From Bifidobacterium pseudolongum subsp. pseudolongum DSM 20099 (GTDB lineage Bacteria; Actinomycetota; Actinomycetes; Actinomycetales; Bifidobacteriaceae), in assembly GCF_000771225.1 (NCBI RefSeq), contig NZ_JDTZ01000003.1, positions 186,001 to 250,000 on the forward strand: a DNA stretch of 64,000 bases, read 5' to 3'. Below the pieces are notes generated by a model that made no database searches, was not told the origin of the DNA, and saw nothing but the letters and a program-made list of their open reading frames with translations. Of this stretch, positions 2,217-38,826 are shown piece after piece (the stretch's first letter is position 1; each line of letters starts with the position of its first letter). Both the position numbers and the translations under genes were made by a program.

Positions 2217-3266
2217 ATGGAACAGGTCACATGGAAGTCGAATCTGAGCAAACTCGTGCGCGGGGAGCATTTGACCGCGGAAGAGACGGAGTGGTTCGTC
2301 GATGACCTGATGCGCGGCAACGCCGATCCGGCCGCGGTGGGCGCCGTGCTCGCCACGCAGCAGCAGCTTGGCCTGACGCAAGAGGAGGTGGCCGGCGCCG
2401 CCAAGGCGATGGTCGCGCATGCGGTGCCGCTCGACGTGCAGGCGGAATGCACCGACATCGTCGGCACCGGCGGTGACGGCATGCACACGGTGAACCTCTC
2501 CACGATGGGCGCGGTCATCGCCGCCGCCGCGGGCGTGACGATCGTGAAGCACGGCAATCGTGCCGCCTCCTCGAAGTGCGGCGCCGCCGACTGCCTCGAG
2601 GCGCTCGGCCTGCCGCTCGACCTCGATCCGCAGGCCGTGGCCGCGGTGGCCGACGAGGTGGGCATCACATTCGCCTTCGCCAAGACCTTCCACCCGGCCA
2701 TGCGTTTTGTCGGGCCGGTGCGCGCTGCCCTCGGCGTGCCCTGCGTGTTCAACGTGCTGGGCCCACTGACCAATCCGGCAAAGCCGAAGCATATGGCGAT
2801 CGGCTGCGCGAACCGTGCGATGAGCCCCATCATGGCTGCCGTCTATGCGGCGAACGGGCAGACCGGCATGGTCTACACGTCGAACGAAGGGCTCGACGAG
2901 ATGGCTCCCACAGGACCGATCAGCGTCTGGGAATTCGGTGATGGCGACGTGCGTGAAACCACGTTCGACCCGGTTGCGGAACTGGGCCTCGATCCGGTCG
3001 TCATTGAGGACCTGCGCGGCGGCGAACCTGCACAGAACGCGCAGGCCGTGCGCGACCTGCTCGCGGGCAAGCCGGTTCCGTTCCGTTCCACCGCGCTGCT
3101 GAACGCCGCCTCGGCGATTGTCGCCGACGGTCGTCTGGTGTCCAACGGCGCGCTCGCAGACCGTTTCCGCGAAGCCTACACAATCGCGCAGCAGGTGGTG
3201 GATTCAGGCAAGGCGGCGGCATTGCTCGACGAATGGATTGCCGTGGCCCAGTCGCACCGCGGCTGA
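2217..3266 (+). CDS. trpD: Anthranilate phosphoribosyltransferase
   Basis: Transfers phosphoribosyl from PRPP to anthranilate, the second step of tryptophan synthesis in the cytoplasm. The 349-residue product has the family length. It shows the PRPP loop GTGGDGMHTVNLST near residue 82 and the KHGNRAASSKCGAADCLEALG region with anthranilate-site residues. I chose ATG 2217 because TAAGGAG lies just upstream; the frame stays open upstream to a GTG at 2172, but that has no ribosome site. A TAGACT hexamer (2166-2171) may be the -10. No other trp gene is in the window, so it appears to be a stand-alone gene. It converges on the next gene with only 10 bp between stops. Confidence 0.95.
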   Translation: MEQVTWKSNLSKLVRGEHLTAEETEWFVDDLMRGNADPAAVGAVLATQQQLGLTQEEVAGAAKAMVAHAVPLDVQAECTDIVGTGGDGMHTVNLSTMGAVIAAAAGVTIVKHGNRAASSKCGAADCLEALGLPLDLDPQAVAAVADEVGITFAFAKTFHPAMRFVGPVRAALGVPCVFNVLGPLTNPAKPKHMAIGCANRAMSPIMAAVYAANGQTGMVYTSNEGLDEMAPTGPISVWEFGDGDVRETTFDPVAELGLDPVVIEDLRGGEPAQNAQAVRDLLAGKPVPFRSTALLNAASAIVADGRLVSNGALADRFREAYTIAQQVVDSGKAAALLDEWIAVAQSHRG

Positions 3267-3276
3267 ACCACAGCGG

Positions 3277-3807
3277 TCACACGCGCGCGCCGTCGTCGAA
3301 TTCGTCACGTTTCGTTTCGTCATGGCCTTTGTGCTGGGCAAACAGTCCGCCGGCACCCACGAGGATGCACAGCGCGAACACCACGCCCAGTACGGAGGCC
3401 ATGTGCGGTATGAACACCGTGGCGATGATGCCGACGATGCCAATCACGAAGATGAGGCCGAACACAAGCCGTGAACGCTTGATGTCGGAAAGGTCCGGGT
3501 TCGGGGGAGTGAACCCGGCGCCGTACTGGTCCATCACGTCATCGGTGTCGAGCCAGCTCGAGCGGTAGTCGCGCGGGCCCCCACCGCCCACGAATGCGTC
3601 GCTCGTCAGGTCGTGCACCGAGACGAGCGTCTGCTTTTCCTGCCGTTCGGCGTGCTTGTTGAACTTGCGGGCGGTCTTCGACTGCTCGATGTCGTGCAGT
3701 TCATGCTGGTGTTCGGAGAGGAACGCCTCCCAATCATCGCCCGAGCCGCCCGATGACCCTGCGGCCCCTGCCGAGTCGCCTGTGCTGCTATTGTTGTGGT
3801 CAGTCAT
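3277..3807 (-). CDS. Small actinobacterial membrane protein of unknown function
   Basis: Not recognised as a named family. The 176-residue product starts with a Ser/Gly/Asp-rich hydrophilic N-terminal part of about 100 residues. Next comes a WLDTDDVMDQYGAGFTPPNP stretch, then two adjacent hydrophobic helices (about residues 113-155), and a short charged tail. The likely topology is a two-helix anchor with the large N-terminal part in the cytoplasm. ATG 3807 was chosen because TACAGT on the minus strand ends exactly 7 nt before it, fitting a leaderless transcript, and no Shine-Dalgarno is visible. It is divergent from the acyltransferase gene (52 bp between starts). Confidence 0.75.
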   Translation of the reverse strand: MTDHNNSSTGDSAGAAGSSGGSGDDWEAFLSEHQHELHDIEQSKTARKFNKHAERQEKQTLVSVHDLTSDAFVGGGGPRDYRSSWLDTDDVMDQYGAGFTPPNPDLSDIKRSRLVFGLIFVIGIVGIIATVFIPHMASVLGVVFALCILVGAGGLFAQHKGHDETKRDEFDDGARV

Positions 3808-3814
3808 ACGCACT

Positions 3815-3820
3815 ACTGTA
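3815..3820 (-). promoter_or_regulatory. Candidate leaderless -10 (TACAGT, N7, ATG)
   Basis: Minus-strand TACAGT ends 7 nt before the ATG at 3807. This spacing puts transcription start at or next to the A of ATG. It is one of eight similar cases in the window. Confidence 0.5.
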
Positions 3821-3859
3821 ATCAAGCGGACAGTCAACCGCAGGGGAAGGAACCGACGC

Positions 3860-4570
3860 ATGCTGTATTGGTTTTTCGTGAAGACGCTGGGGCCGATCGC
3901 ACGGCATCGCATGCATCCGACCGCAGTGGGTCTCGAGAACATCCCACGTCAGGGCGGTGGCATCATCGCGGCGAACCACTTGGCCGTCATCGACGACGCG
4001 CTGTTGCCGCTGACATGTCCACGCATGATCCACTTCATGGGCAAGGCCGAATACTTTGAAGGCAAGGGGCTCAAGGGCAAGTTCAAGAAATGGTGGTTCA
4101 CGTCGGTCGGTGTGTTCCCCGTGGACCGTTCCGGCGGTTCGAAATCGCTCGGCGCCCTCGAGCATGCGCGCGAGATCATCGAAAGCGGCGAGCTGTTCGG
4201 CATCCACGTGGAAGGCACCCGCAGCCCCGACGGGCGCCTGTACAAGGGGCACACCGGTGCCGCGCGCCTCGCGTTGGAGACCGGCTGCCCGATCATCCCC
4301 ACCGCAATCATCGGGTCGCGCGAGATCCAAAAGCCCGGGCAGATCATCCCCGGCAAAGGCAAGAGCACGGTGATCTACGGCACACCGATCGATGTGCCGA
4401 AGACGACGTCCGACCAGGTGACCCACGAGATGCTGCGCGAACTGACCGACCGCGTCGTCAAGCAGATCCAGCAGATGAGCGGCCAGGAATACGTGCCCGA
4501 ATACGCGCAGGTCGTCAAGAAGCAGATGCAGGAGGAACAGCAGACGCTTGACGCCGCTAAAGCCGAGTAG
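3860..4570 (+). CDS. plsC: 1-acyl-sn-glycerol-3-phosphate acyltransferase (PlsC family)
   Basis: Adds the second acyl chain to lysophosphatidic acid to form phosphatidic acid, at the inner membrane face. The 236-residue product has the HX4D acyltransferase motif (NHLAVID near residues 40-46), the glycerophosphate-binding EGTRSPDG motif near residue 118, and the later PIIPTAIIGS block. ATG 3860 follows a GGGGAAGG ribosome site; an upstream extension of the frame runs antisense through the neighbouring gene and was rejected. The gene ends at a strong shared terminator. Exact acyl specificity cannot be read from sequence. Confidence 0.88.
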   Translation: MLYWFFVKTLGPIARHRMHPTAVGLENIPRQGGGIIAANHLAVIDDALLPLTCPRMIHFMGKAEYFEGKGLKGKFKKWWFTSVGVFPVDRSGGSKSLGALEHAREIIESGELFGIHVEGTRSPDGRLYKGHTGAARLALETGCPIIPTAIIGSREIQKPGQIIPGKGKSTVIYGTPIDVPKTTSDQVTHEMLRELTDRVVKQIQQMSGQEYVPEYAQVVKKQMQEEQQTLDAAKAE

Positions 4571-4588
4571 CCAAATGAAATTATGAAC

Positions 4589-4632
4589 AAGAAGGTGCGG
4601 GAACAGTCAAAAAACTGTTCCCGCACCTTCTT
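4589..4632. terminator. Bidirectional terminator between plsC and the PASTA kinase
   Basis: Perfect 19-bp stem (4589-4607 with 4614-4632) with a 6-nt A-rich loop, AA before and TT after. It lies between two converging genes (stops at 4570 and 4644), so it can serve both strands. It is the strongest hairpin in the window. Confidence 0.9.
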
Positions 4633-4643
4633 ACTTATTTGAA

Positions 4644-6710
4644 CTATACAATTTTGATAGTAATAACGGTGGGGTCTCCATTAGTATCTCGTAGTCTGAC
4701 TGAAGAATCTTTTGCGGGATTCTGTTCAATGACACGATGGAGCACTTCTATGCCCAACTTTTTCTCGACTTTGACTCGGAAGCCTGCCTCTTCAAGGATT
4801 TTAGTTGCCTCGCTCGGGGATTTATCAATCACATCTGGAACTGTCCCCATCTCAGGGCCTTTTGAGACCACGAGATGCACGGAGTTGCCCCAGTGCAGCT
4901 GGGCGCCGGCGTCTTCGGAGCTCGATATGACCTGCCCTGCGGGCACGGTATCGCTGTTCTCCTCGCTCGTCGTCACGGTGAGCTTGTCCTCTTCGAGCAC
5001 CGCCTTCACGTCCGACGCGGGTTTGCCGACGACCTCGGGCATCGACACCGGCATCGGGCCCTTCGAGAGCACCACATCGACGGGCTCGTTGTGGTCGACG
5101 GTGGTGCCGGCTTCGGGCGTGATCGAAATGACCTCGCCTTCCGGCACGTCGAGCGACCATTCGTCGGTGTCGGCGCTATGCACGATGTTGGTGAATCCCG
5201 CGCGTTTGAGCGAGGCGAGCGGATCAGTCGAAGACATGATGTCCTCCGGTACCGTCGACTGCTGCACGCCTTGCGAGACGACGACACGGACCTTCTGCAG
5301 GTCGCCGCGTTTGCTCACATGCGCGTTCACGAATTCGGGGTCGGTGGAGATGATGTCGCCTTTCGGCACGGTGTCGCTGTACGATTTGGATGTCTCGTAC
5401 GCAATGCCGGCGGCCTTCAGCGCCTTCTCGTAATCGGCCCACGGCACGCCGGCGATCTTGCACGGCGCGTTCTCCTGGCAGTGCAACGCCTCGATCTGCG
5501 GCATCTCGTAGTAGCTGCCCGGACCGGCGTAATACCACCATCCCCATCCCGCGGCGCCTCCCAGCGCCAACACCGCGGCGGCGATGGCGACACCGATCGC
5601 CCAGCGCTTGCCCGTGGACATGCCATGGTGCACTTGGGTCGGCGTGGCATCGGCGTTGGCGGCCGTGGGCCGCGCGGCCGGCTGTGGTGTGTACGGCGTC
5701 GAAGCGGCCGTCGCGGCACCCGCCATCGGCACGGCCTGTGTGCGGTCGTCCAGCTTCGCGGCGGTGGGTCCTGTCTGAGCCTTGCCGCCCACTGGCAGCA
5801 CCGTTGTGGCGTTCGGTGCCGGCGCATCCGGGTCGAAGTGGTATTGCAGGGCCTGGGGTGAAAGAGTGCGCATGAGGGCGTTGAGACGGTCGAGGGCCTG
5901 CGAGGCGTCGGCGGGGCGGTCGTTCACGTCGCGGTTCGTCAGATACGAGATGAACCGCGCCACCTGCGGGTCGATCCCGGTGCAGACCGTGGCGACCGAC
6001 GGCACGTTCTCGTTCACATGCTTGAACACCATCGTCACGGGATTGTCCGCGAGGAACGGCACCTGCCCGGTGAGCATCTCCCACGCCATGATGCCGACGG
6101 AATAGCAGTCGCCCTGCGGTGTGGCCAGATTGTTCTCGATCATCTCGGGCGCAAGGTAGGCGGCGGTGCCGAGCAGCATGCCGGTCGAGGAGAGCGTGGC
6201 CTGCGAGGCGGCCTTGGCCAGGCCGAAGTCGGTGATCTGCACACGCCCGCGGTCGTTGATCAGGATGTTCTCGGGTTTGATGTCGCGGTGCACGACGCCT
6301 GCGCGGTGCGCCGCGGCGAGGCCATTGAGCGTTTCGGAGACGACGCGCAGCGTCTCGCGCACACTGAAGGTGCGCTTCGTCTGCATCTCGTGCCGCAGGT
6401 TCACACCGTGCACATATTCCATCACGAGGTAGTCGAGCCCGTCGTTCTCTCCGGTGTCGTACACCTGCACGACGTGCGGGTTCGCGATGGCGGCCGCCGA
6501 GTTCGCCTCGCGTCGGAAGCGTTCCACGAACTGGTCGCGGTGCGGTCCCTGCGCGAGTTGGATGTGCATGATCTTGAGCGCCACATCGCGCCCCAACCGC
6601 ACGTCCACCGCCTGATAGACCGTGGCCATGCCGCCGTCCGCGATTTTGCGCACAATGCGGTAGCGCCCGTCGATCAGCTTGTTTTCGGGCATATTTGCAG
6701 CTTCACTCAT
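4644..6710 (-). CDS. pknB: Membrane Ser/Thr protein kinase with four PASTA domains (PknB/StkP type)
   Basis: Transmembrane kinase whose outer PASTA repeats are known in this family to sense muropeptides or lipid II, and whose inner kinase phosphorylates cell-wall and division proteins. The 688-residue product has a kinase domain (about residues 14-275) with glycine loop IADGGMATVY, Lys46 in VALKIMH, HRDIKPEN, DFG and APE. An Ala/Pro/Thr-rich linker and one membrane helix near residue 390 follow, then four PASTA repeats to the C-terminus. ATG 6710 has GAAGGAC upstream. A TAGAAT box on the minus strand (6777-6782) overlaps the end of the preceding gene and may be its -10. It is not beside the usual rodA/pbpA/phosphatase division cluster. 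Confidence 0.92.
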   Translation of the reverse strand: MSEAANMPENKLIDGRYRIVRKIADGGMATVYQAVDVRLGRDVALKIMHIQLAQGPHRDQFVERFRREANSAAAIANPHVVQVYDTGENDGLDYLVMEYVHGVNLRHEMQTKRTFSVRETLRVVSETLNGLAAAHRAGVVHRDIKPENILINDRGRVQITDFGLAKAASQATLSSTGMLLGTAAYLAPEMIENNLATPQGDCYSVGIMAWEMLTGQVPFLADNPVTMVFKHVNENVPSVATVCTGIDPQVARFISYLTNRDVNDRPADASQALDRLNALMRTLSPQALQYHFDPDAPAPNATTVLPVGGKAQTGPTAAKLDDRTQAVPMAGAATAASTPYTPQPAARPTAANADATPTQVHHGMSTGKRWAIGVAIAAAVLALGGAAGWGWWYYAGPGSYYEMPQIEALHCQENAPCKIAGVPWADYEKALKAAGIAYETSKSYSDTVPKGDIISTDPEFVNAHVSKRGDLQKVRVVVSQGVQQSTVPEDIMSSTDPLASLKRAGFTNIVHSADTDEWSLDVPEGEVISITPEAGTTVDHNEPVDVVLSKGPMPVSMPEVVGKPASDVKAVLEEDKLTVTTSEENSDTVPAGQVISSSEDAGAQLHWGNSVHLVVSKGPEMGTVPDVIDKSPSEATKILEEAGFRVKVEKKLGIEVLHRVIEQNPAKDSSVRLRDTNGDPTVITIKIV

Positions 6711-28710: not shown

Positions 28711-31044
28711 ATGGCGGACACGGAGCATGAGATGCAGCCTGCGAACATGTTGGGGTGCGAGATCAGCGAGAACCCGCTGGATCCGCTGCTGCCGATCCTG
28801 TCAATATGCCGCCAGCACCATCCTGACGAAGATATGGAGATCCTCTCGCGCGCCTATGCGCGTGCGGTGCGCCAGCATTCCTCCCAACGGCGCAAATCGG
28901 GCGAGCCGTACATCATACACCCGCTCGCCGTGGCGCAGATTCTGGCCGATTTGGGCATGGGGCCTTTGGTCGTGGCGGCAGGCCTGCTACACGACACGGT
29001 GGAAGATACCGATTACACGCTCGACGAGTGCCGTGCGGAATTCGGCGATACCGTGACCGGTCTCGTGGATGGCGTCACGAAGCTCACGAAGATGGATTAT
29101 GGCGATTCCGCGCAGGCGGAGACGATCCGCAAGATGGTCGTGGCGATGAGCCGCGATGTGCGCGTGCTCGTCGTCAAACTCGCCGACCGTGTGCACAACG
29201 CGCGCACCTGGCGGTACGTCAAGCCGTCGAGCGCGCAGAAGAAGGCGCGCGAGACGCTCGACGTCTATGCGCCGCTCGCCAACCGCCTCGGCATGAACGC
29301 CATCAAGACGGAGCTCGAGGAACTGAGCTTCAAGGTGCTCTACCCGAAGATCTACAACGAGATCGTCATGCTCGTGGCGCACCGTGCAGGGCAGCGCGAA
29401 GTCTACCTCAAGCAGATCATCGCCGAGATCCATGATGATCTGGAAGACCTGCACATCGAGGCCTATGTGACGGGCAGGCCGAAGGACTATTTCTCGATCT
29501 ACCAGAAGATGATTGTGCGAGGCCATGATTTTTCGGACATCTACGACCTTGTGGGCGTGCGCATCATCGTCGACACCATTCAGGACTGCTATGCCGTGCT
29601 CGGTGCCGTGCATGCGCGGTGGAGCCCGGTGCCGGGGCGGTTCAAAGACTACATCGCCATGCCCAAGCTCAACATGTACCAAAGCCTGCACACCACCGTG
29701 GTTGGCCCGGGAGGCAAGCCGGTCGAAATCCAGATCCGTACGTGGGACATGCACCGGCGCGCGGAGTTCGGCATCGCAGCGCATTGGAAATATAAGGAGA
29801 ACGGGCAGGCGGGCCGTGCGCTGAGCACGCCCGACAAGACCGACCGGCGGCGTGGCGAGAATCAGGAGCTCAGCGAGTCCGACAATCTGGCATGGATCCA
29901 GCAGCTCGCCGATTGGACGAGCGAGACACCGGATTCCAATGAGTTCCTCGGCTCACTCAAAGAGGATCTTGGGGCTGCCGAGGTCTACGTGTTCACGCCG
30001 AAGGGCAAGATCGTCTCGTTGCCGGCGGACGCCACGCCGGTGGACTTCGCCTATGCCGTGCATACGGAGGTGGGGCACCGCACGATGGGCGCGCGCGTCA
30101 ACGGCCGTCTTGTGCCGCTCGACACCAAGCTCGAAAACGGCGACACCGTGGAGGTGCTGACGAGCAAGTCGGATACGGCGGGGCCTTCCCGTGATTGGCT
30201 CAGTTTCGTCAAAAGCCCCAAGGCGCGCAACAAGATCCGCCAGTGGTTCAGCAAGGAGCGCCGTTCCGAGGCGATCGAAGAGGGGCGCGACGAGCTGACG
30301 CGTGCGATGCGCAAACGCAACCTGCCCGTGCAGGCGCTGCTGACGTCCGAGGCGATGGTGGGGGTGGCCGACGACATCAACTTGCCGAACGCCGATGCGG
30401 TGTTCGCCGCGATCGGCGAAGGGCAGATCTCCACGCAGAACGTGATCTCGCATCTCGTCAAGGACGCGGGTACCAGCGAGGTCAATGAAGAGGCCGAAGA
30501 GGAGGTGCTGCCGCTACGCGCCTCGAAGCGCAAGCGGGACAATGGCACGCCGGGGATCTCAGTCAAGGGCGTCAGTGATGTGTGGGTGAAGCTCGCACGC
30601 TGCTGCATGCCGGTGCCGGGCGATGGCATCATCGGATTCATCACACGCAACGAAGGCGTGTCGGTGCACCGCGTGGATTGCCTGAACATGATCAACCTGC
30701 AGCGCAGGGAACCGGAGCGCGTGGTGGAAGTGGAATGGACAAGCGCCAAGGGCCTGTTCATGGTCAAGATCCAGGTCGAGGCACTGGACCGCCCGCATCT
30801 GCTCAGCGATGTGACGCGTGTGCTTTCCGACCATGGGGTCAACATTCTCTCGGGGTCGATCGCCACGGGCAGCGACCGTGTGGCGACGAGCCAGTTCAGC
30901 TTTGAAATGGCCGATCCACAGCATCTGAACACACTGCTTTCGGCGGTGCGCAAGATCGACGGCGTCTTCGACGTCTACAGGCTTACCGGGGCCAGGGATG
31001 CGGCGCAACCACGTATGCGCCGCATCCTTGGCCATGTGTCGTGA
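28711..31044 (+). CDS. rel: Bifunctional (p)ppGpp synthetase/hydrolase, RSH family
   Basis: Makes and destroys the starvation alarmone (p)ppGpp. The 777-residue product has the HD hydrolase domain (HPLAVAQIL, LLHDTVEDT, KLADRVHNART), the synthetase domain (GRPKDYFSIYQKM, YDLVGVRIIV, MYQSLHTTVVGP), and the TGS domain starting VYVFTPKGKIVSLP. The zinc-finger/CC domain (LARCCMPVPGDGIIGF) and a C-terminal ACT domain follow. Intact HD residues suggest real hydrolase activity, so it is a long bifunctional Rel. ATG 28711 has GGAGGAG 4 nt upstream. It converges on the cyclophilin gene with 24 bp between stops. Confidence 0.95.
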   Translation: MADTEHEMQPANMLGCEISENPLDPLLPILSICRQHHPDEDMEILSRAYARAVRQHSSQRRKSGEPYIIHPLAVAQILADLGMGPLVVAAGLLHDTVEDTDYTLDECRAEFGDTVTGLVDGVTKLTKMDYGDSAQAETIRKMVVAMSRDVRVLVVKLADRVHNARTWRYVKPSSAQKKARETLDVYAPLANRLGMNAIKTELEELSFKVLYPKIYNEIVMLVAHRAGQREVYLKQIIAEIHDDLEDLHIEAYVTGRPKDYFSIYQKMIVRGHDFSDIYDLVGVRIIVDTIQDCYAVLGAVHARWSPVPGRFKDYIAMPKLNMYQSLHTTVVGPGGKPVEIQIRTWDMHRRAEFGIAAHWKYKENGQAGRALSTPDKTDRRRGENQELSESDNLAWIQQLADWTSETPDSNEFLGSLKEDLGAAEVYVFTPKGKIVSLPADATPVDFAYAVHTEVGHRTMGARVNGRLVPLDTKLENGDTVEVLTSKSDTAGPSRDWLSFVKSPKARNKIRQWFSKERRSEAIEEGRDELTRAMRKRNLPVQALLTSEAMVGVADDINLPNADAVFAAIGEGQISTQNVISHLVKDAGTSEVNEEAEEEVLPLRASKRKRDNGTPGISVKGVSDVWVKLARCCMPVPGDGIIGFITRNEGVSVHRVDCLNMINLQRREPERVVEVEWTSAKGLFMVKIQVEALDRPHLLSDVTRVLSDHGVNILSGSIATGSDRVATSQFSFEMADPQHLNTLLSAVRKIDGVFDVYRLTGARDAAQPRMRRILGHVS

Positions 31045-31068
31045 CGCGCGGACACAACACGGTTTGGG

Positions 31069-31605
31069 TCAGACGAGCTCGATCGCTTCAATCATGACCG
31101 GCTCAAGCGGGCGGTCCTGGCCGTCGGTCGCCACGGCATCGAGCTTGTCGACCACGGCCTTCGACTCCTCGTCGGCCACTTCGCCGAAGATCGTGTGGTG
31201 GCCGTCGAGCCACGGGGTCGGCACCGTGGTGATGAAGAACTGCGAGCCGTTGGTGCCGTGCACCTTGCCATCGGCGCCGCGGCGCAGACCGGCATTGGCC
31301 ATGGCGAGCAGGTACGGGCGGTCGAACTTGAGCGTCGGGTCAATCTCGTCGTCGAAGTCGTAACCCGGGCCGCCGGTGCCGGTGCCGAGCGGGCAGCCGC
31401 CTTGGATCATGAAGTCCTTGATGATGCGGTGGAACGTGAGTCCATCGTAGAACTTCTCGTGCGAAGGCTGGCCGGTGAACGGGTCGGTCCATTCCTTCTT
31501 GCCGGTGGCCAGGCCCAGGAAGTTCTCCACGGTGTGCGGAGCCTTCGTGTCGAACAGATTGATACGGATATCACCCTCAGAGGTGTGCATGATAATAGTT
31601 GTCAT
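31069..31605 (-). CDS. Peptidyl-prolyl cis-trans isomerase, cyclophilin type
   Basis: Cytoplasmic proline isomerase that helps protein folding. The 178-residue product is a single cyclophilin domain with no signal peptide: [29 protein letters not shown] (catalytic Arg region), a GSQFFIT block and [13 protein letters not shown]. Start ATG 31605 has GAGAGG close upstream and also a TACGGT box ending 8 nt before it, so it could be leaderless or use the ribosome site. Confidence 0.94.
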
Positions 31606-31613
31606 AGCCTCTC

Positions 31614-31619
31614 ACCGTA
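31614..31619 (-). promoter_or_regulatory. Candidate -10 (TACGGT, N8, ATG) for the cyclophilin gene
   Basis: Minus-strand TACGGT ends 8 nt before ATG 31605. This would give a transcript with no leader or only a base or two. Confidence 0.4.
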
Positions 31620-31674
31620 GCACAATCCCTGTTGCGCGCTGAGCCCACTGGAAAACAGCCTGCCGGCGCGACGG

Positions 31675-32496
31675 TCAGATCACGCCGAAATGGCGCAGCG
31701 CCTGCGCGATGCCGTCGTCGTCCACGCTGCCGGTCACGTGGTCCGCGGCCTGTTTCGTCTCGTCGGTCGCGTTGCCCATGGCCACGCCGATGCCCGCATA
31801 GCGCAGCATGTCAATGTCGTTGCCGCCATCGCCGAATGCGATCGATTGGCTGCGCGTCAGGCCGTAATGGCACAGCATGCGCTCCATGCCCCGGTTCTTG
31901 CCCCCGTCGGCGGGAATCAGATCCACGAAGTCGGGGTGCCAGCGCACGCCGCGCACGGCATGGCACAAGGAGACGAGCTCGGCCTCGGCAGCGGCATCGA
32001 TGTACGGGCTGATCTGGTAGACCGGATTCGTGCGCGTGCGCGTGCGCGGGTCGATGAAGTCGATGTGCGGCGCGGTCTTGCCCAGCGAGCCCCACATGGC
32101 GCGCAGCTGTGCGGAGTCATGGTTGAAATACGTGTCATCCGCCTCGCTGAAGCAGGCGACGACATCCGGATGGGTATCGAGCCAGCCGAGGATCGTGCGC
32201 ACGTCGTCCGGATGCATCGGCTCAGCACCGATGACGCCGGTGGCGTCCCAGCAGTACTGGCCGTTGACGCCGACGATGCCGTCGAATTCCACCGGCAGCG
32301 TGTCAAGCACGACCGGCGTCTGCGAGGGCGCGCGCCCAGTGCAGATGAAGGTCTTCACGCCCTGCGCGCGCAGGGCGTGAAGGGCGTCCACCGTGGATTG
32401 GGGCACAGTGTGCGTCGTGAAGCTCGTGAGCGTGCCGTCGATGTCGAAGAACGCCGCGCGGATGTCGGGGGCGGTCTGGTCTGGTGCAGTGGTCAT
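31675..32496 (-). CDS. HAD-superfamily phosphatase, Cof-like subfamily
   Basis: Cytoplasmic phosphohydrolase of 273 residues acting through an aspartyl phosphate. It has motif I FFDIDGTLTSF (nucleophile Asp), motif II ICTGR, a C2-type cap, and motif III/IV with the Lys region and FGDGGNDIDMLRYAGIGVAMGNA. Such enzymes dephosphorylate sugar phosphates or flavin/PLP-type substrates; the real substrate is unknown. ATG 32496 has TACAGT ending exactly 7 nt upstream and no ribosome site. Confidence 0.9.
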   Translation of the reverse strand: MTTAPDQTAPDIRAAFFDIDGTLTSFTTHTVPQSTVDALHALRAQGVKTFICTGRAPSQTPVVLDTLPVEFDGIVGVNGQYCWDATGVIGAEPMHPDDVRTILGWLDTHPDVVACFSEADDTYFNHDSAQLRAMWGSLGKTAPHIDFIDPRTRTRTNPVYQISPYIDAAAEAELVSLCHAVRGVRWHPDFVDLIPADGGKNRGMERMLCHYGLTRSQSIAFGDGGNDIDMLRYAGIGVAMGNATDETKQAADHVTGSVDDDGIAQALRHFGVI

Positions 32497-32503
32497 GGGT
32501 GCC

Positions 32504-32509
32504 ACTGTA
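32504..32509 (-). promoter_or_regulatory. Candidate leaderless -10 (TACAGT, N7, ATG)
   Basis: Minus-strand TACAGT ends 7 nt before the HAD phosphatase ATG at 32496. Confidence 0.5.
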
Positions 32510-32780
32510 GCGCGCGCAGGGGAGTGGGCGCTCCGGGGATGATCATTGTACTGCCAGCATATGAGATGATTTTGTTCGAAATATGGCGCAATATGCGGGC
32601 GCCGTGATGTTCGGCACAAGCGCAATCGGCGCCATACCAAGGATTGAGTGGATTGTATAACCAAACCCTATATCCCCGCCCGCGTGTGGTGTGCGGCGGG
32701 CGCCGTATTGTTGGACACGTTGTTCGGCGCCCACGCCGGAAGAAGTGTAGAAGATACCCAACCCAGCACAGAGGAACACC
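32510..32780. other. Intergenic region upstream of metQ
   Basis: About 270 bp between the divergent HAD and metQ genes, AT-richer than its surroundings at first. It holds a GC stem near 32676-32700 (CCCGCC with GGCGGG) and several ATATG/AATATG words. A TATAAC near 32656 could be a -10. No known riboswitch fold was recognised. Confidence 0.3.
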
Positions 32781-33764
32781 ATGTCATCCAACACCCCACA
32801 GTTCAATACCGAGGAACCGGTGCGCGTCAACCACCGCGTACGCAACATCGTGATCGCAGTCGTGGTGGTCGTGGCGCTCGCCGTGGCCGCGTTCTTCGGA
32901 TACCGCGCCATGAACAAGAACGACAACGCGCCGAAGGGCTCGGAGACGAACCCGGTCGTAATCGGTGTGGTCGGCGCCACCGACCCGCAGTGGGTGGAAT
33001 TCACCAAACAGGCCAAGGCCCAGGGCATCTACGTCGACATCAAGGATTTCCAGGACTACACGAGCGAAAACCCGGCGCTCGACGCGGGCGACCTCGACAT
33101 GAACGAGTTCCAGCACCTGCTGTATCTGGCGAACTACAATGTGCAGAACAAGAAGAACCTGCAGCCGCTCGGCGGCGTGGCGATCTACCCGCTCGGCGTG
33201 TATTCGGCGTTCGACGGCGACAAGCCCAAGTACACCGACATCTCGCAGCTGCCCGCCGGCTCCACGGTGGCGATCCCGAACGACGAGACCAATCAGGCGC
33301 GCGCACTCGGCGTGCTCAAGGCGGCGGGACTCATCACGCTCAAGGGTGACTGGACCGCGTTCACGATTCCGCAGGACGTGGACACCGCGAACTCCAAGGT
33401 CAAGGTCGTCCCCATGAAGGCCGAACAAATCGCCAACACGCTCAAAGCCGGCTCAAGCGACCTGTCCGCCGGCGTGATCAACAACGATTACGTGGCCGAC
33501 GCCGGCCTCAAGCCCACCGACGCCCTCTACCAGGACGACGCGGAATCCGAGGAATCCCGCCCGTACATCAACATCTTCGCCGTGCGCGCCGATGATGTGG
33601 ACAACGAAGTGTACAAGAAGTGCGTCGAAATCTACCAGACGAAGCCGGTGCTCGACGCGCTGCAGGAGGAATCCGGCGGCACCGCCGTGTTCGCCGACAA
33701 GTTCACCACGGCGCAGTTGCAGCAGTACCTCAAGGACATCGAAAACGACATCAAGCAGCACTGA
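32781..33764 (+). CDS. metQ: MetQ/NlpA-family substrate-binding protein, membrane anchored
   Basis: Extracellular binding component of a methionine-type ABC importer. The 327-residue product has a short cytoplasmic tail and one hydrophobic helix (about 22-44). An NlpA-type domain follows: VIGVVGATDPQW, DYTSENPALDAGDLDMNEFQHLLYL, GVAIYPLGVYS, STVAIPNDETNQARAL and AGVINNDYVADAGL. No lipobox cysteine follows the helix, so it seems to be held by an uncleaved signal anchor instead of lipid. GAGGA lies before ATG 32781. metN and metI follow, which supports D/L-methionine or a related peptide as substrate. Confidence 0.88.
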   Translation: MSSNTPQFNTEEPVRVNHRVRNIVIAVVVVVALAVAAFFGYRAMNKNDNAPKGSETNPVVIGVVGATDPQWVEFTKQAKAQGIYVDIKDFQDYTSENPALDAGDLDMNEFQHLLYLANYNVQNKKNLQPLGGVAIYPLGVYSAFDGDKPKYTDISQLPAGSTVAIPNDETNQARALGVLKAAGLITLKGDWTAFTIPQDVDTANSKVKVVPMKAEQIANTLKAGSSDLSAGVINNDYVADAGLKPTDALYQDDAESEESRPYINIFAVRADDVDNEVYKKCVEIYQTKPVLDALQEESGGTAVFADKFTTAQLQQYLKDIENDIKQH

Positions 33765-33776
33765 CGCCCGTGCCCG

Positions 33777-33841
33777 CAGTGGGGCCGAGCGGCACCGTTC
33801 GCTACAATGGCGCACGGGCCGTTCGGCCCCACTGTTGTAGC
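33777..33841 (+). promoter_or_regulatory. Interlocked inverted repeats in the metQ-metN gap (possible pseudoknot)
   Basis: Stem A is a perfect 12-bp inverted repeat (33777-33788 with 33823-33834). Stem B is a 7-bp repeat (33801-33807 with 33835-33841). The order A-left, B-left, A-right, B-right, with A-right directly followed by B-right, is the layout of an H-type pseudoknot. A further 8-bp GC hairpin (33854-33861 with 33871-33878) precedes the metN ribosome site. The left arm of B also contains TACAAT (33803-33808), which could be a -10. A leader-RNA control element is one reading; an internal promoter with operator is the other. Confidence 0.45.
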
Positions 33842-33902
33842 ATCGTCACACGTCGGCCGCGGCCTGCACACGCGGCCGGGCCATCAGGTGGAAGGCAGTA
33901 TT

Positions 33903-35164
33903 ATGACGCAGACGAGCGAACCGATCATCGTGTTCGACCATGTGAGCAAGGAGTTCCGGCAGCGCGGCTCCAAACAGCCGATGCGCGCCGTGGACGACGT
34001 GTCGTTGAGCATAGACGCCGGCGACATCTTCGGCATCATCGGGTATTCGGGCGCCGGCAAATCCACGCTCGTGCGCATGATCAACGCGCTTGAACAGCCC
34101 ACAAGCGGATCGGTCACCGTGCTCGGCGAGCGCGTCTCGTCGATGAGCGAATCGAAATTGCGGCCAGTGCGCCAGAAGATCGGCATGATCTTCCAGCAGT
34201 TCAATCTCTTCTCCAGCAAAACGGTCGCACAGAACGTGGCCTACCCGTTGAAACTCGACCACTGGCGCAAGGATTACCAAGACAAGCGCGTGGCGGAGCT
34301 GCTCGAATTCGTGGGGCTTTCCGACCACGCCGGAAAATACCCCTCCCAACTCTCCGGCGGCCAGAAGCAGCGCGTCGGCATTGCGCGCGCGCTGGCGACG
34401 AATCCGAAGATCCTGCTCGCCGACGAGGCGACGAGTGCGCTCGACCCCGAGACGACGTCCGAGGTGCTCGATCTGCTCAAGCGCGTGAACGAACAGTTCG
34501 GCATTACGATCGTATACTCATCACGCACCAGATGAACGTCGTGCAGCAGATCGCGAACCGCGTGGCCGTGATGAGCGGGGGCAAGGTCGTCGAGCAGGGC
34601 GATGTGTATGACCTGTTCGCCGCGCCGAAGCAGGAGGTGACCAAGCGGTTCATCGCCACGGCCATGGACGGGCTGCCCGACCCTGCGCGCGTCGAGGCGA
34701 TGCGCGAACAATGGCCCGGCCGACTCGTGACCGTCGTGATCCGCCAGCGTGACATCACCGACGCCAGCGGCGCCACGATTGTGCCGGCATCCGGGCAGAA
34801 CATCTCCGAGCTCATCGCGCACTACGGCATGCACAGCAGCCTGCTGTACGGAGGCATCGACACCGTGCAGGGCGTGGCGATCGGCGCGGTCACGTATGAG
34901 TTCACCGGCGACGAGGCGAACACCGAGCGCTTCCTCGCGCAGCTTGCGCAAGACAGCGACATCGTGGACTTCGGCACACGCGCCGCCCCGGTCGACTATG
35001 CGCAGGCGGTGGCGCGCGCGCAGCTCGCCGTACCCGATGGGGGCACCGATGCGGACAGCGATGCGCGCACCCTTGCCACCGACGTGGGGATGCTCGAACA
35101 GGTCGATGACGTGGTGGAGATGAACCCCGAAGACGAGCAATCCGAGAACAAGGAGCGTGCATGA
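33903..35164 (+). pseudogene. metN: MetN ABC transporter ATPase, split by a 2-nt insertion
   Basis: ATPase of the MetNIQ methionine importer. ATG 33903 (GAAGG upstream) opens a frame with Walker [11 protein letters not shown]-loop, signature [15 protein letters not shown] and Walker [13 protein letters not shown], but after TIV it reads YSSRTR and stops at 34535. Removing one TA pair at 34515-34516 restores [11 protein letters not shown], so the H-loop His is lost from both halves. The downstream frame (34532-35164, 210 residues) starts with ATG overlapping that stop as ATGA and carries the C-terminal NIL methionine-sensing domain (about DIVDFGT). The intact product would be 419 residues. Sequencing error, a real mutation or two coupled polypeptides are all possible. 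Confidence 0.85.
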
Positions 35165-35865
35165 TGCAGATGCTGACCATACAGACAGGTGTGGCGTTGG
35201 CGAGCCGCAGCGACTGGACCGTGCTGCGGCCGTTGCTGGCACAATCGGTTGTGCAGACCCTGCAGATGGTGCTGGTGACGATTGTGATCGGTGGCGCGCT
35301 CGGCCTTGTGCTCGGCGTCATCCTGTACGGCACGCGCCCCGGCAACCTGTTCGAGAACCGCGTCGTCTACCGCATCCTCGACATTCTGGTGAACATCATC
35401 CGCCCGATCCCATTCATCATCTTCCTGGCGGCCATGCAGCCGCTCACAATCAAGGTGGTGGGAACGTCGATCGGCACCACGGCGGCGATCTTCCCGATGA
35501 TCGTGATGTGCACCTTCGCCACGTCACGCCTTGTGGAGCAGAATCTCGTGCCGGTTGACCACGGCGTGATCGAGGCGGCACGCGCGATGGGTGCCTCGAA
35601 GCTCACGATCATCCGCACCGTGCTCATCCCCGAGGCGCTCGCCCCGCTCATTCTGGCCTACGCGTTCCTGTTCATCGGCGTGCTCGACATGTCGGCCATG
35701 GCCGGGTACATCGGCGGTGGCGGTCTCGGCAACTTCGCCATCGCCTATGGCTACCAGAAGTTTGACCAGACCGTCACATGGACGGCCGTGATCATCATGA
35801 TCGTGCTGGTGCAGGTCGTGCAAGCCCTCGCCAACGCCATCGCCAAGCGCCTGCTGCGCCACTGA
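35161..35865 (+). CDS. metI: Methionine-type ABC transporter permease MetI
   Basis: Membrane permease of 234 residues with about five hydrophobic helices. The cytoplasmic EAA loop, which docks the ATPase, is EAARAMGASKLTIIRTVLIPEA (about 138-159). The IIRPIPFIIFLAAMQP and GGGGLGNFAI blocks are typical of MetI. Its ATG 35161 overlaps the stop of metN (ATGA), so it is translationally coupled to the damaged ATPase gene; AAGGAG lies upstream. The gene itself looks intact. Confidence 0.93.
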   Translation: MMQMLTIQTGVALASRSDWTVLRPLLAQSVVQTLQMVLVTIVIGGALGLVLGVILYGTRPGNLFENRVVYRILDILVNIIRPIPFIIFLAAMQPLTIKVVGTSIGTTAAIFPMIVMCTFATSRLVEQNLVPVDHGVIEAARAMGASKLTIIRTVLIPEALAPLILAYAFLFIGVLDMSAMAGYIGGGGLGNFAIAYGYQKFDQTVTWTAVIIMIVLVQVVQALANAIAKRLLRH

Positions 35866-35908
35866 GCGCGCCCATGAACCGCAGTCATCCACTGGCCGAA
35901 AGGACCCC

Positions 35909-37084
35909 ATGATGGAATCCATCACCGCGCACATCGCGCTCACCGATGAGCTCATCGCCATCCGCCGCCACTTGCACGCGCACCCGGAACGCTCGTTCCA
36001 CGAAGTCGAGACGAGCGCCTATCTGGAGCGCGTCCTGCGCGGGCACGGGGTGGATGTGCTCGCGAATCCGATGGAGACCGGCGTCGTGGCGCAGATCACC
36101 GGCGAGCACCCCGGCCCTACGGTCGCATTGCGCGCCGACATCGACGGCCTGCCGATCCACGAGGATTCCGGACTCGATTTCGCGTCCGTCAACCCCGGGG
36201 TCATGCACGGCTGCGGCCACGACCTGCATATGGCGAGCCTGCTCGGCGCGGTGTTCTGGTTGGGTGATCACCGGGATCTGATCGGCGGTACGGTGCGCAT
36301 CATCTTCCAACCCGCCGAAGAGCTAGGACTCGGCGCGCGCGCCGTGATCGACGCCGGCCTCGTCGATGGGGTCGAAGCGATCATCGGCACGCACAACAAC
36401 CCCAATTACGCGCCTGGCGTGCTCGCCGCAGGCACCGACCCCATGATGGCCGGTTGTGTGCGCTTCAGGGTCACCCTGCACGCGCAGGGCACCCATGCCG
36501 GTTATCCGCACAAAGGCACCGGTCCGCTCGAGGCGATGGCCGCGATGATCATGGGACTGCAGACCATTGTGAGCCGCAACGTCACGCCGTTCCACCCGCT
36601 CGTCGTCTCGGTGACCGAAGTGCACGGCGGCGATGTGTGGAACGTCGTGCCCGCAGAAGCCGGCTTCCAAGGCACCGTACGCTATTTCCACCGCGAGGAC
36701 GGCGATATGGCTGCCGAGCGGTTCCGCACGATCGTCGAACAGACGGCGGCGGCATACGGCATCGGCGCAAGCGTGGACTGGGATGACTTCCAGGACCCGC
36801 TCGTCAGCGACCCCCTGCTCATCGAACCGGTGTGCATGCATATCCCGCAGTATGCGGACCCCGCGCCAATCATCCCGTCGATGGCCGGTGAGGACTTCGC
36901 CGAATACGCCAAGGTCACGCGTCCGGTGTTCGCGTTCGTCGGGTCGAACGGCACGCCCGGATGCGCCGATTGGCATAGCCCGCGCTTCGTGGGGTTTGAC
37001 GAGACGGTGCGCACCGGCGCCGACTTCTATGCGAACGCCGCACTCGACGTGCTTGACGCCCTGCGCATAAGCGGCGCCCGGTGA
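35909..37084 (+). CDS. M20-family amidohydrolase (aminoacylase/N-acyl amino acid deacylase type)
   Basis: Zinc-dependent hydrolase that removes an acyl group from amino acids or small peptides. The 391-residue product has RRHLHAHPERSFHE at the N-terminus, the metal region LRADIDGLPI and MHGCGHDLHMA (metal Cys/His), QPAEELGLGARAV, GTHAGYPHKGTGP, and C-terminal MAGEDFAEY. This is the M20D hippurate/IAA-amino acid/N-acetyl-diaminopimelate deacetylase group. It follows metI by 43 bp with AAAGGA upstream, so it may release methionine or another amino acid from an imported N-acyl conjugate; this is inference. Confidence 0.9.
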   Translation: MMESITAHIALTDELIAIRRHLHAHPERSFHEVETSAYLERVLRGHGVDVLANPMETGVVAQITGEHPGPTVALRADIDGLPIHEDSGLDFASVNPGVMHGCGHDLHMASLLGAVFWLGDHRDLIGGTVRIIFQPAEELGLGARAVIDAGLVDGVEAIIGTHNNPNYAPGVLAAGTDPMMAGCVRFRVTLHAQGTHAGYPHKGTGPLEAMAAMIMGLQTIVSRNVTPFHPLVVSVTEVHGGDVWNVVPAEAGFQGTVRYFHREDGDMAAERFRTIVEQTAAAYGIGASVDWDDFQDPLVSDPLLIEPVCMHIPQYADPAPIIPSMAGEDFAEYAKVTRPVFAFVGSNGTPGCADWHSPRFVGFDETVRTGADFYANAALDVLDALRISGAR

Positions 37085-37117
37085 GTCATTCGAAGCGCGT
37101 AACGCGTGGCGAGCGGA

Positions 37118-37123
37118 TACACT
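37118..37123 (+). promoter_or_regulatory. Candidate -10 (TACACT, N8, ATG) for nadE
   Basis: TACACT ends 8 nt before ATG 37132. An AGGGGAG lies in the spacer too, so either leaderless or ordinary initiation from an upstream promoter is possible. Confidence 0.45.
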
Positions 37124-37131
37124 AGGGGAGC

Positions 37132-38826
37132 ATGAGCACAATACGTTTCGCGCTTGCGCAGATCGACACCTGCGTGGGCGATCTGGACGGCAACGCCGCA
37201 AAAGTCATCGCAACCACCCGCATGGCGCGTGAACGCGCCGACATCGTCGTCTTTCCGGAGATGACCCTGACCGGCTATCCGATCGAAGACCTTGCCCTGC
37301 GCGCCACCTTCCGCGAAGCCGCGTGGAACACGGCCAACGAACTGGCAGCGCAATTGGACGAAGAAGGCATGGGCGGCCTGTACGTGGTGGTGGGCACCGT
37401 GGGCACCGACCACGCCAACGGCAAGCCGCGCAACCGCCTTGTGGTGCTGCACGGCGGCTTGGTGTGGGCCGGGTACGACAAGCACTTCCTGCCCAATTAC
37501 GGTGTGTTCGACGAATTCCGGATCTTCTCCGCCGGTGAGCGGCATACCGTGCTCACCATAGACGGCGTGCGCGTGGGATTGGCGATCTGCGAAGACATCT
37601 GGCAAGACGGCGGGCCGGTCGCCGAACTCGCCACGGAGCACATCGATGTGCTGCTGACGATCAACGGATCGCCGTACGAAGAAGGCAAAACCCAGACCCG
37701 GCTCGATCTGGCCCGCAGGCGCGCCGCCGAAGTGCATGCGCCGATGATCTATGTGAATCAGGTGGGCGGGCAGGACGACCTCGTCTTCGATGGCGGCACA
37801 TTCGTGGTGGATGCGGACGGCACGCTGCTCCAACGCTCGCCGATGTTCATGGAGGACCTTGCATACTTCACCCTCGACACGGACCGCGACCGTCAGGAGG
37901 CGTGCAAGGTCGCGCCGCGCATGGACCCCGACGAAGAGGTGTACACCGCATGCGTGTTGGGTCTCAAGGACTACATGGCCAAGAACGGCTTCACGGGGGT
38001 GTGCCTGGGGTTGTCCGGAGGCATCGACTCGGCCCTCGTGGCGGCCATGGCGGCCGACGCCGTGGGAGGCGGCAATGTGTACGGCATCTCGATGCCGAGC
38101 ATGTATTCGTCGCAGGGCTCAAAAGATGACGCCGCCGACCTCGCCGCCAACATCGGCGCGCACTACGACGTGCAGCCGATCAAGCCGATGTACGAGGCGT
38201 TCCAACGGCAGCTCGCGCTGGACGGCGTGTCCGCGGAGAACCTGCAGGCGCGCATCCGCGGCGTGATCGTCATGGCCTACTCGAACTCCAAGGGCGTGCT
38301 CGCGCTCGCCACCGGCAACAAGTCCGAGCTCGCCTGTGGCTATTCGACGATCTACGGTGACGCCGTGGGCGGCTATGCGCCGATCAAAGACGTATTCAAG
38401 ACCAAGGTCTGGCAGTTGGCGCGCTGGCGCAACAGCGCCGCCGCCGCGGGCATGGGCGTCGGCGGATTGCGCATCGTGGGCAATGAGTCCGCGAATGCCG
38501 GCGTGCAGTTGCCCGACGGCGTGATGATCCCCGTCAACTCGATCACGAAGGCCCCCAGCGCCGAACTGCGCCCGGGGCAGAAAGACAGCGATTCGCTGCC
38601 GCAGTACGAGCTGCTCGACCGCGTGCTCGAGGCATACATCGAACATGCACATGGCCGTGCCGATCTGCTCGCTGACGGATTCGACGACGAAATCGTCTCG
38701 ACGGTCATGCGCCTTGTCGACCGTGCCGAATGGAAGCGCCGCCAGTATCCGCTCGGGCCGAAGGTCAGCGCGCTCGCGTTCGGACGCGACCGCCGCCTGC
38801 CCGTCACGAGCGCGTTTCGTGAATAG
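37132..38826 (+). CDS. nadE: Glutamine-hydrolysing NAD+ synthetase
   Basis: Final step of NAD biosynthesis: amidates deamido-NAD using ammonia taken from glutamine. The 564-residue product fuses an N-terminal nitrilase-type glutaminase with the catalytic triad Glu43 (FPEMTLTGYP), Lys117 (YDKHFLPNYGVFDE) and Cys153 (AICEDIW), and a C-terminal synthetase with the PP-loop SGGIDS (295-300). The STIYGDAVGGYAPIKDVFK block follows it. It matches the two-domain bacterial form of 540-580 residues. ATG 37132 is supported by spacing to TACACT. Confidence 0.96.
   Translation: MSTIRFALAQIDTCVGDLDGNAAKVIATTRMARERADIVVFPEMTLTGYPIEDLALRATFREAAWNTANELAAQLDEEGMGGLYVVVGTVGTDHANGKPRNRLVVLHGGLVWAGYDKHFLPNYGVFDEFRIFSAGERHTVLTIDGVRVGLAICEDIWQDGGPVAELATEHIDVLLTINGSPYEEGKTQTRLDLARRRAAEVHAPMIYVNQVGGQDDLVFDGGTFVVDADGTLLQRSPMFMEDLAYFTLDTDRDRQEACKVAPRMDPDEEVYTACVLGLKDYMAKNGFTGVCLGLSGGIDSALVAAMAADAVGGGNVYGISMPSMYSSQGSKDDAADLAANIGAHYDVQPIKPMYEAFQRQLALDGVSAENLQARIRGVIVMAYSNSKGVLALATGNKSELACGYSTIYGDAVGGYAPIKDVFKTKVWQLARWRNSAAAAGMGVGGLRIVGNESANAGVQLPDGVMIPVNSITKAPSAELRPGQKDSDSLPQYELLDRVLEAYIEHAHGRADLLADGFDDEIVSTVMRLVDRAEWKRRQYPLGPKVSALAFGRDRRLPVTSAFRE

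Follow-up and report, generated by a model that had tools for sequence, protein, structure and literature searches.

A two-base insertion ahead of the H-loop in one of two metN genes of Bifidobacterium pseudolongum subsp. pseudolongum DSM 20099, probably a recent loss-of-function allele

In the assembly of Bifidobacterium pseudolongum subsp. pseudolongum DSM 20099, one of two genes for MetN, the putative ATPase of a methionine importer, carries a net insertion of two bases that breaks its reading frame just before the H-loop. The gene lies in a window of 64,000 nucleotides (positions 186,001 to 250,000 of contig NZ_JDTZ01000003.1, forward strand), and positions below are those of the window. 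The insertion, at codons 204-205, shifts the frame and truncates the predicted ATPase, and we consider it probable that this is a recent loss-of-function allele whose effect a paralogue buffers. The first metN would then most likely be non-functional, either as a recent pseudogene or as a strain-level null allele, and its loss would be tolerated owing to the genome's MetE-type methionine synthase and its second, complete metQNI set. A familiar form of single-lesion bacterial pseudogene is the frameshifted allele that is backed up by a paralogue. The metN gene is like these in having one frame-breaking indel, otherwise conserved sequence and a second copy, with nothing distinctive about it; such a private frameshift, striking one metN of a pair, is an ordinary kind of event.

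The gene stands in an operon with metQ and metI, as judged from the Pfam matches of its neighbours. Upstream is an intact metQ-like gene for a substrate-binding lipoprotein (32781-33764, plus strand; Lipoprotein_9, 6.6e-59), and downstream an intact metI-like permease gene (35161-35865, plus strand; BPD_transp_1, 9.3e-18), the start of which overlaps the metN stop. Between them metN is read, also on the plus strand, as two fragments. The 5' fragment (33903-34535) runs for 210 codons from the ATG at 33903 to a TGA at 34533-34535. It matches ABC_tran (2.3e-38) and, in translation, contains all of what we take to be the Walker A, signature and Walker B motifs. The solved sequences that match it best are 7mbz, labelled as an ABC transporter, and 3dhw, 3tui and 6cvl, labelled as MetN. 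The 3' fragment (34532-35164), in the -1 frame relative to the first, runs from the ATG at 34532 to the TGA at 35162-35164 and encodes 210 amino acids; the NIL domain (1.8e-09) is found only on this separate piece. The operon members metQ, metN and metI, the ABC ATPase motifs and the C-terminal NIL domain are shared with MetN of the MetNI-Q methionine ABC importer (3dhw, 3tui, 6cvl), whereas the frame broken ahead of the H-loop is not. No Rfam element reaches the gathering threshold within 30000-38000. The C-terminal tail past the NIL domain (34952-35164) is rich in acidic residues and highly variable among relatives, and in many other Bifidobacterium the match stops at about residue 161-163 of the 3' fragment.

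The lesion itself is short. Positions 34512-34517 read GTATAC, compared with GTGC in the two nearest relatives, which are 94% identical to the window over metQNI; the whole homologous stretch measures 3085 bases in the window and 3083 in these two genomes. In the alignment with the comparison genome G064, GTATACTC stands against GTG--CTC, the sole indel listed inside metN; more widely, ATCGTATACTCATC stands against ATCGTG--CTCATC, and the genome G089 reads ATCGTGCTGATC across the site. Because the insertion leaves TATA at 34513-34516, the extra pair may be taken as 34513-34514, 34514-34515 or 34515-34516. A preliminary description of this DNA had put a TA at 34515-34516; the two extra bases stand, while the exact pair is ambiguous. 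Since the nearest relatives have G as the third base of the valine codon where the window has A, the change reads as GTG>GTA plus a duplication of TA, or as a single replacement of G by ATA.

The consequences for the protein, as described earlier, are borne out by the sequence, its translation and the alignment of relatives. The gene is split just before the H-loop, and TIVLITHQMN becomes TIVYSSRTR followed by the TGA at 34533-34535, so that the 5' product ends with six out-of-frame residues (YSSRTR) and lacks LITHQM and everything beyond it. The 3' fragment starts past the H-loop histidine and, if translated from its internal ATG, would supply only the piece beyond the H-loop with the NIL domain. 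THQM, and hence the histidine, is found in neither translation. In the excerpted text of PMC2896483 this histidine contacts the gamma-phosphate, and in that of PMC7756269 the H-loop is described as important in hydrolysis. The latter excerpt also reports that mutating the histidine at one of ABCC1's two sites had little effect; the requirement for it is thus not absolute everywhere. A literature search returned no paper on metN or methionine auxotrophy in Bifidobacterium, and neither methionine nor pseudogene occurs in PMC8535030.

Comparison of this position in relatives, a check proposed earlier for related strains and made here with one genome per species, gave a uniform answer. From both strands, 92 loci were fetched; a search of the genus gave matches in 64 of 112 genomes at E 1e-60, and 30 of those loci were fetched. 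After 13 loci without both halves of the gene had been set aside, the remaining 79 reduced to 50 distinct sequences, as judged by 300 bases around the site, mostly from Bifidobacterium with a few others of the order. Every one of the 50 keeps its frame across the site, with no stop between the aligned start and a point 300 bases beyond it. Thus, among the fetched loci and at one genome per species, the lesion reads as private to this genome, and a split metN common to the lineage is rejected. The codon preceding the site is GTG in 41 of the 50, GTC in five, GTA in three and ATG in one. Of 41 tabulated loci, 40 have LITHQM or VITHQM as the H-loop and the remaining one has VITHEM; this table does not cover 26 loci on the minus strand and one of low score, 27 in all. 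In subsp. globosum of the same species (loci L039 and L040), metN is about 97% identical to the window in its N-terminal half and 88-90% in its C-terminal half, with metQ and metI alongside; unlike in the window, its frame is intact and the insertion is missing.

The same relatives bear on whether the two halves could still be used together. The stop of the 5' fragment overlaps an internal methionine codon of the downstream frame as ATGA (34532-34535, plus strand), and the preliminary description saw in this a re-linking of the halves, perhaps under selection. The overlap is real. However, 45 of the 50 intact relatives have ATGA, out of frame, at the corresponding site, where it consists of the THQM methionine codon and the first base, A, of the next codon, and a shift of +2 just upstream brings its TGA into frame. 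The overlap thus needs no selection and adds no coincidence; selected re-linking is rejected, and an ATGA found at a break may simply be coding sequence that was there before. This weakens the proposal of coupled polypeptides, in which ribosomes would stop at the TGA at 34533-34535 and restart at the ATG at 34532, giving fragments that form a working or regulatory split MetN. ATGA geometry permits termination-reinitiation, both halves are still open and constrained, and a restart would carry translation towards metI. Against this, no Shine-Dalgarno-like stretch was seen by eye just upstream of 34532, the two products would lack the H-loop histidine between them, and none of the 50 relatives is split, so we regard a working pair of polypeptides as very unlikely. 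It is harder still to credit a variant in which the break is real and is tolerated by restart at the pre-existing ATGA, which keeps the NIL fragment and MetI made, while the operon persists and the ATPase fragment takes an altered, possibly regulatory, role. A restart at 34532 would yield only the portion past the H-loop. Least credible of all is programmed or recoded -1 frameshifting. From 34094 onwards the -1 frame is open, giving an overlap of 442 bases, and a slip near 34515 would retain LITHQM, as had been suggested; the joined product would have 420 residues because of an extra tyrosine, while the 419 given earlier applies to the unbroken frame. However, a scan of 34094-34535 found no slippery heptamer of the form XXXYYYZ, in agreement with the preliminary description, and slippery-site recoding is rejected on that ground. 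Nor does 34500-34620 contain a stable stimulatory fold (z-score +0.65; 149 of 200 shuffled sequences fold as well or better, in a model that does not include pseudoknots), which removes a structured stimulator, and the shifted arrangement occurs in 0 of 50 relatives.

The main rival to a recent loss is a simpler one, namely that the insertion is an error of assembly or sequencing and that metN is intact in the living strain. This we consider unlikely, yet far more credible than any use of the two halves. In its favour, the lesion is single and private to one genome among those compared, selection on the gene is not clearly relaxed, and the assembly is a draft of 1.9 Mb in 23 contigs. Against it, the site is not a homopolymer (34490-34540 contains no run of at least three equal bases), the neighbouring third codon base also differs from the nearest genomes, and the locus is remote from the ends of a 487-kb contig. 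A census of the surrounding genes likewise assigns no other frameshift of this kind to the genome. Together, the nature of the site, its distance from the contig ends and the census favour a true mutation over an error, as far as an assembled sequence can indicate.

The census compared 184 kb around the window (of the 1.9 Mb genome) with one contig of G064, of which 179 kb aligned. An unfiltered comparison had flagged 36 of 133 and 24 of 125 open reading frames, mostly judged to be spurious, and was replaced by one restricted to frames that passed a filter on GC content by codon position; frames shorter than 80 codons, those dropped by the filter and those with no orthologue (three in this genome, two in G064) were excluded. 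Of the 121 frames in G064, 119 have an orthologue in this genome, and nine of these were flagged: metN, seven that differ only towards the N-terminus, and a Peptidase_S51 gene. The largest N-terminal difference spans 191 of 481 residues, upstream of a gene for a HAD-type hydrolase, and the seven were judged to be over-extended starts. A check of coverage (best match below 85% of the frame) returned eight frames, namely metN, the S51 gene and six that miss only N-terminal residues. On this evidence, metN alone, of 119 pairs over about 180 kb, is assigned a mid-gene frameshift on the side of this genome.

When frames of this genome were instead compared with G064, 6 of 117 were flagged. Besides the S51 gene, they comprise two with stops at residue 18 of 304 and residue 31 of 663, a frame of 434 residues interrupted in G064 by a stop at residue 184, one of 738 residues whose first 240 differ, and a candidate gene of 157 residues that G064 encodes as two halves in different frames, where either genome may be the broken one. 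The Peptidase_S51 gene (5251-6057 of locus L115) has GGGGG near 5842, at about 275842 of the contig, where G064 has GGGG (contig C8, about 73.6 kb). Its match covers the Pfam profile from end to end here, which suggests that the gene is intact in this genome and broken in G064.

If the insertion is real, it is likely to be young. Compared with the two nearest genomes, the 5' part of metN has a dN/dS ratio of 0.10 and the 3' part one of 0.23-0.26; the neighbouring genes give 0.05-0.08 (metQ), 0.05-0.06 (metI) and 0.11-0.12 (a downstream M20 gene). Between these two relatives, both intact, the values are 0.03 for the 5' part, with a single non-synonymous change, and 0.37 for the 3' part. The 3' part in the window is therefore no looser than between intact genes, and the 5' part hints otherwise (0.10 vs 0.03). 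Three-way raw counts for the 3' part are 20 synonymous and 20 non-synonymous codon changes on the branch of the window, versus 5 and 6 for the two other branches combined; for the 5' part they are 20 and 6, against 11 and 1. Any loosening thus appears at most slight. Since metN still appears to be under purifying selection, the break would be recent or not real; the lack of clear decay fits a recent event, and fits just as well an error in the assembly of a strain whose gene is intact.

A recent loss-of-function allele would leave the cell with a substitute. On the same contig but outside the window lies a second complete and intact metQ-metN-metI set (locus L127, C17:2001-10000, 2659-5168). 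It consists of a metQ-like gene (Lipoprotein_9 match at C17:4659-5342), an intact metN2 of 374 amino acids downstream of it (C17:5388-6512; TIVFITHQ; ABC_tran 1.1e-35, NIL 6.7e-15), and then a permease gene (C17:6509-7168; BPD_transp_1). The genome also has a gene for a MetE-type methionine synthase (Meth_synt_2, 1.2e-145). Methionine import and synthesis are thus probably retained, with the substrate of either set assigned from its family, and the paralogue may compensate for activity lost from the first metN. Among the three options first offered, loss of the gene now fits best, with sequence error the less probable choice and coupled polypeptides poorly supported. Loss of methionine import by the strain, the form in which gene loss had been put, does not follow, and it should not be inferred from the broken gene, since a second complete set exists. 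The annotation should mark this gene as a frameshifted metN; the finding has little significance beyond this. Two genes with a NIL domain are present in eight of the nine relatives searched, and one in the ninth.
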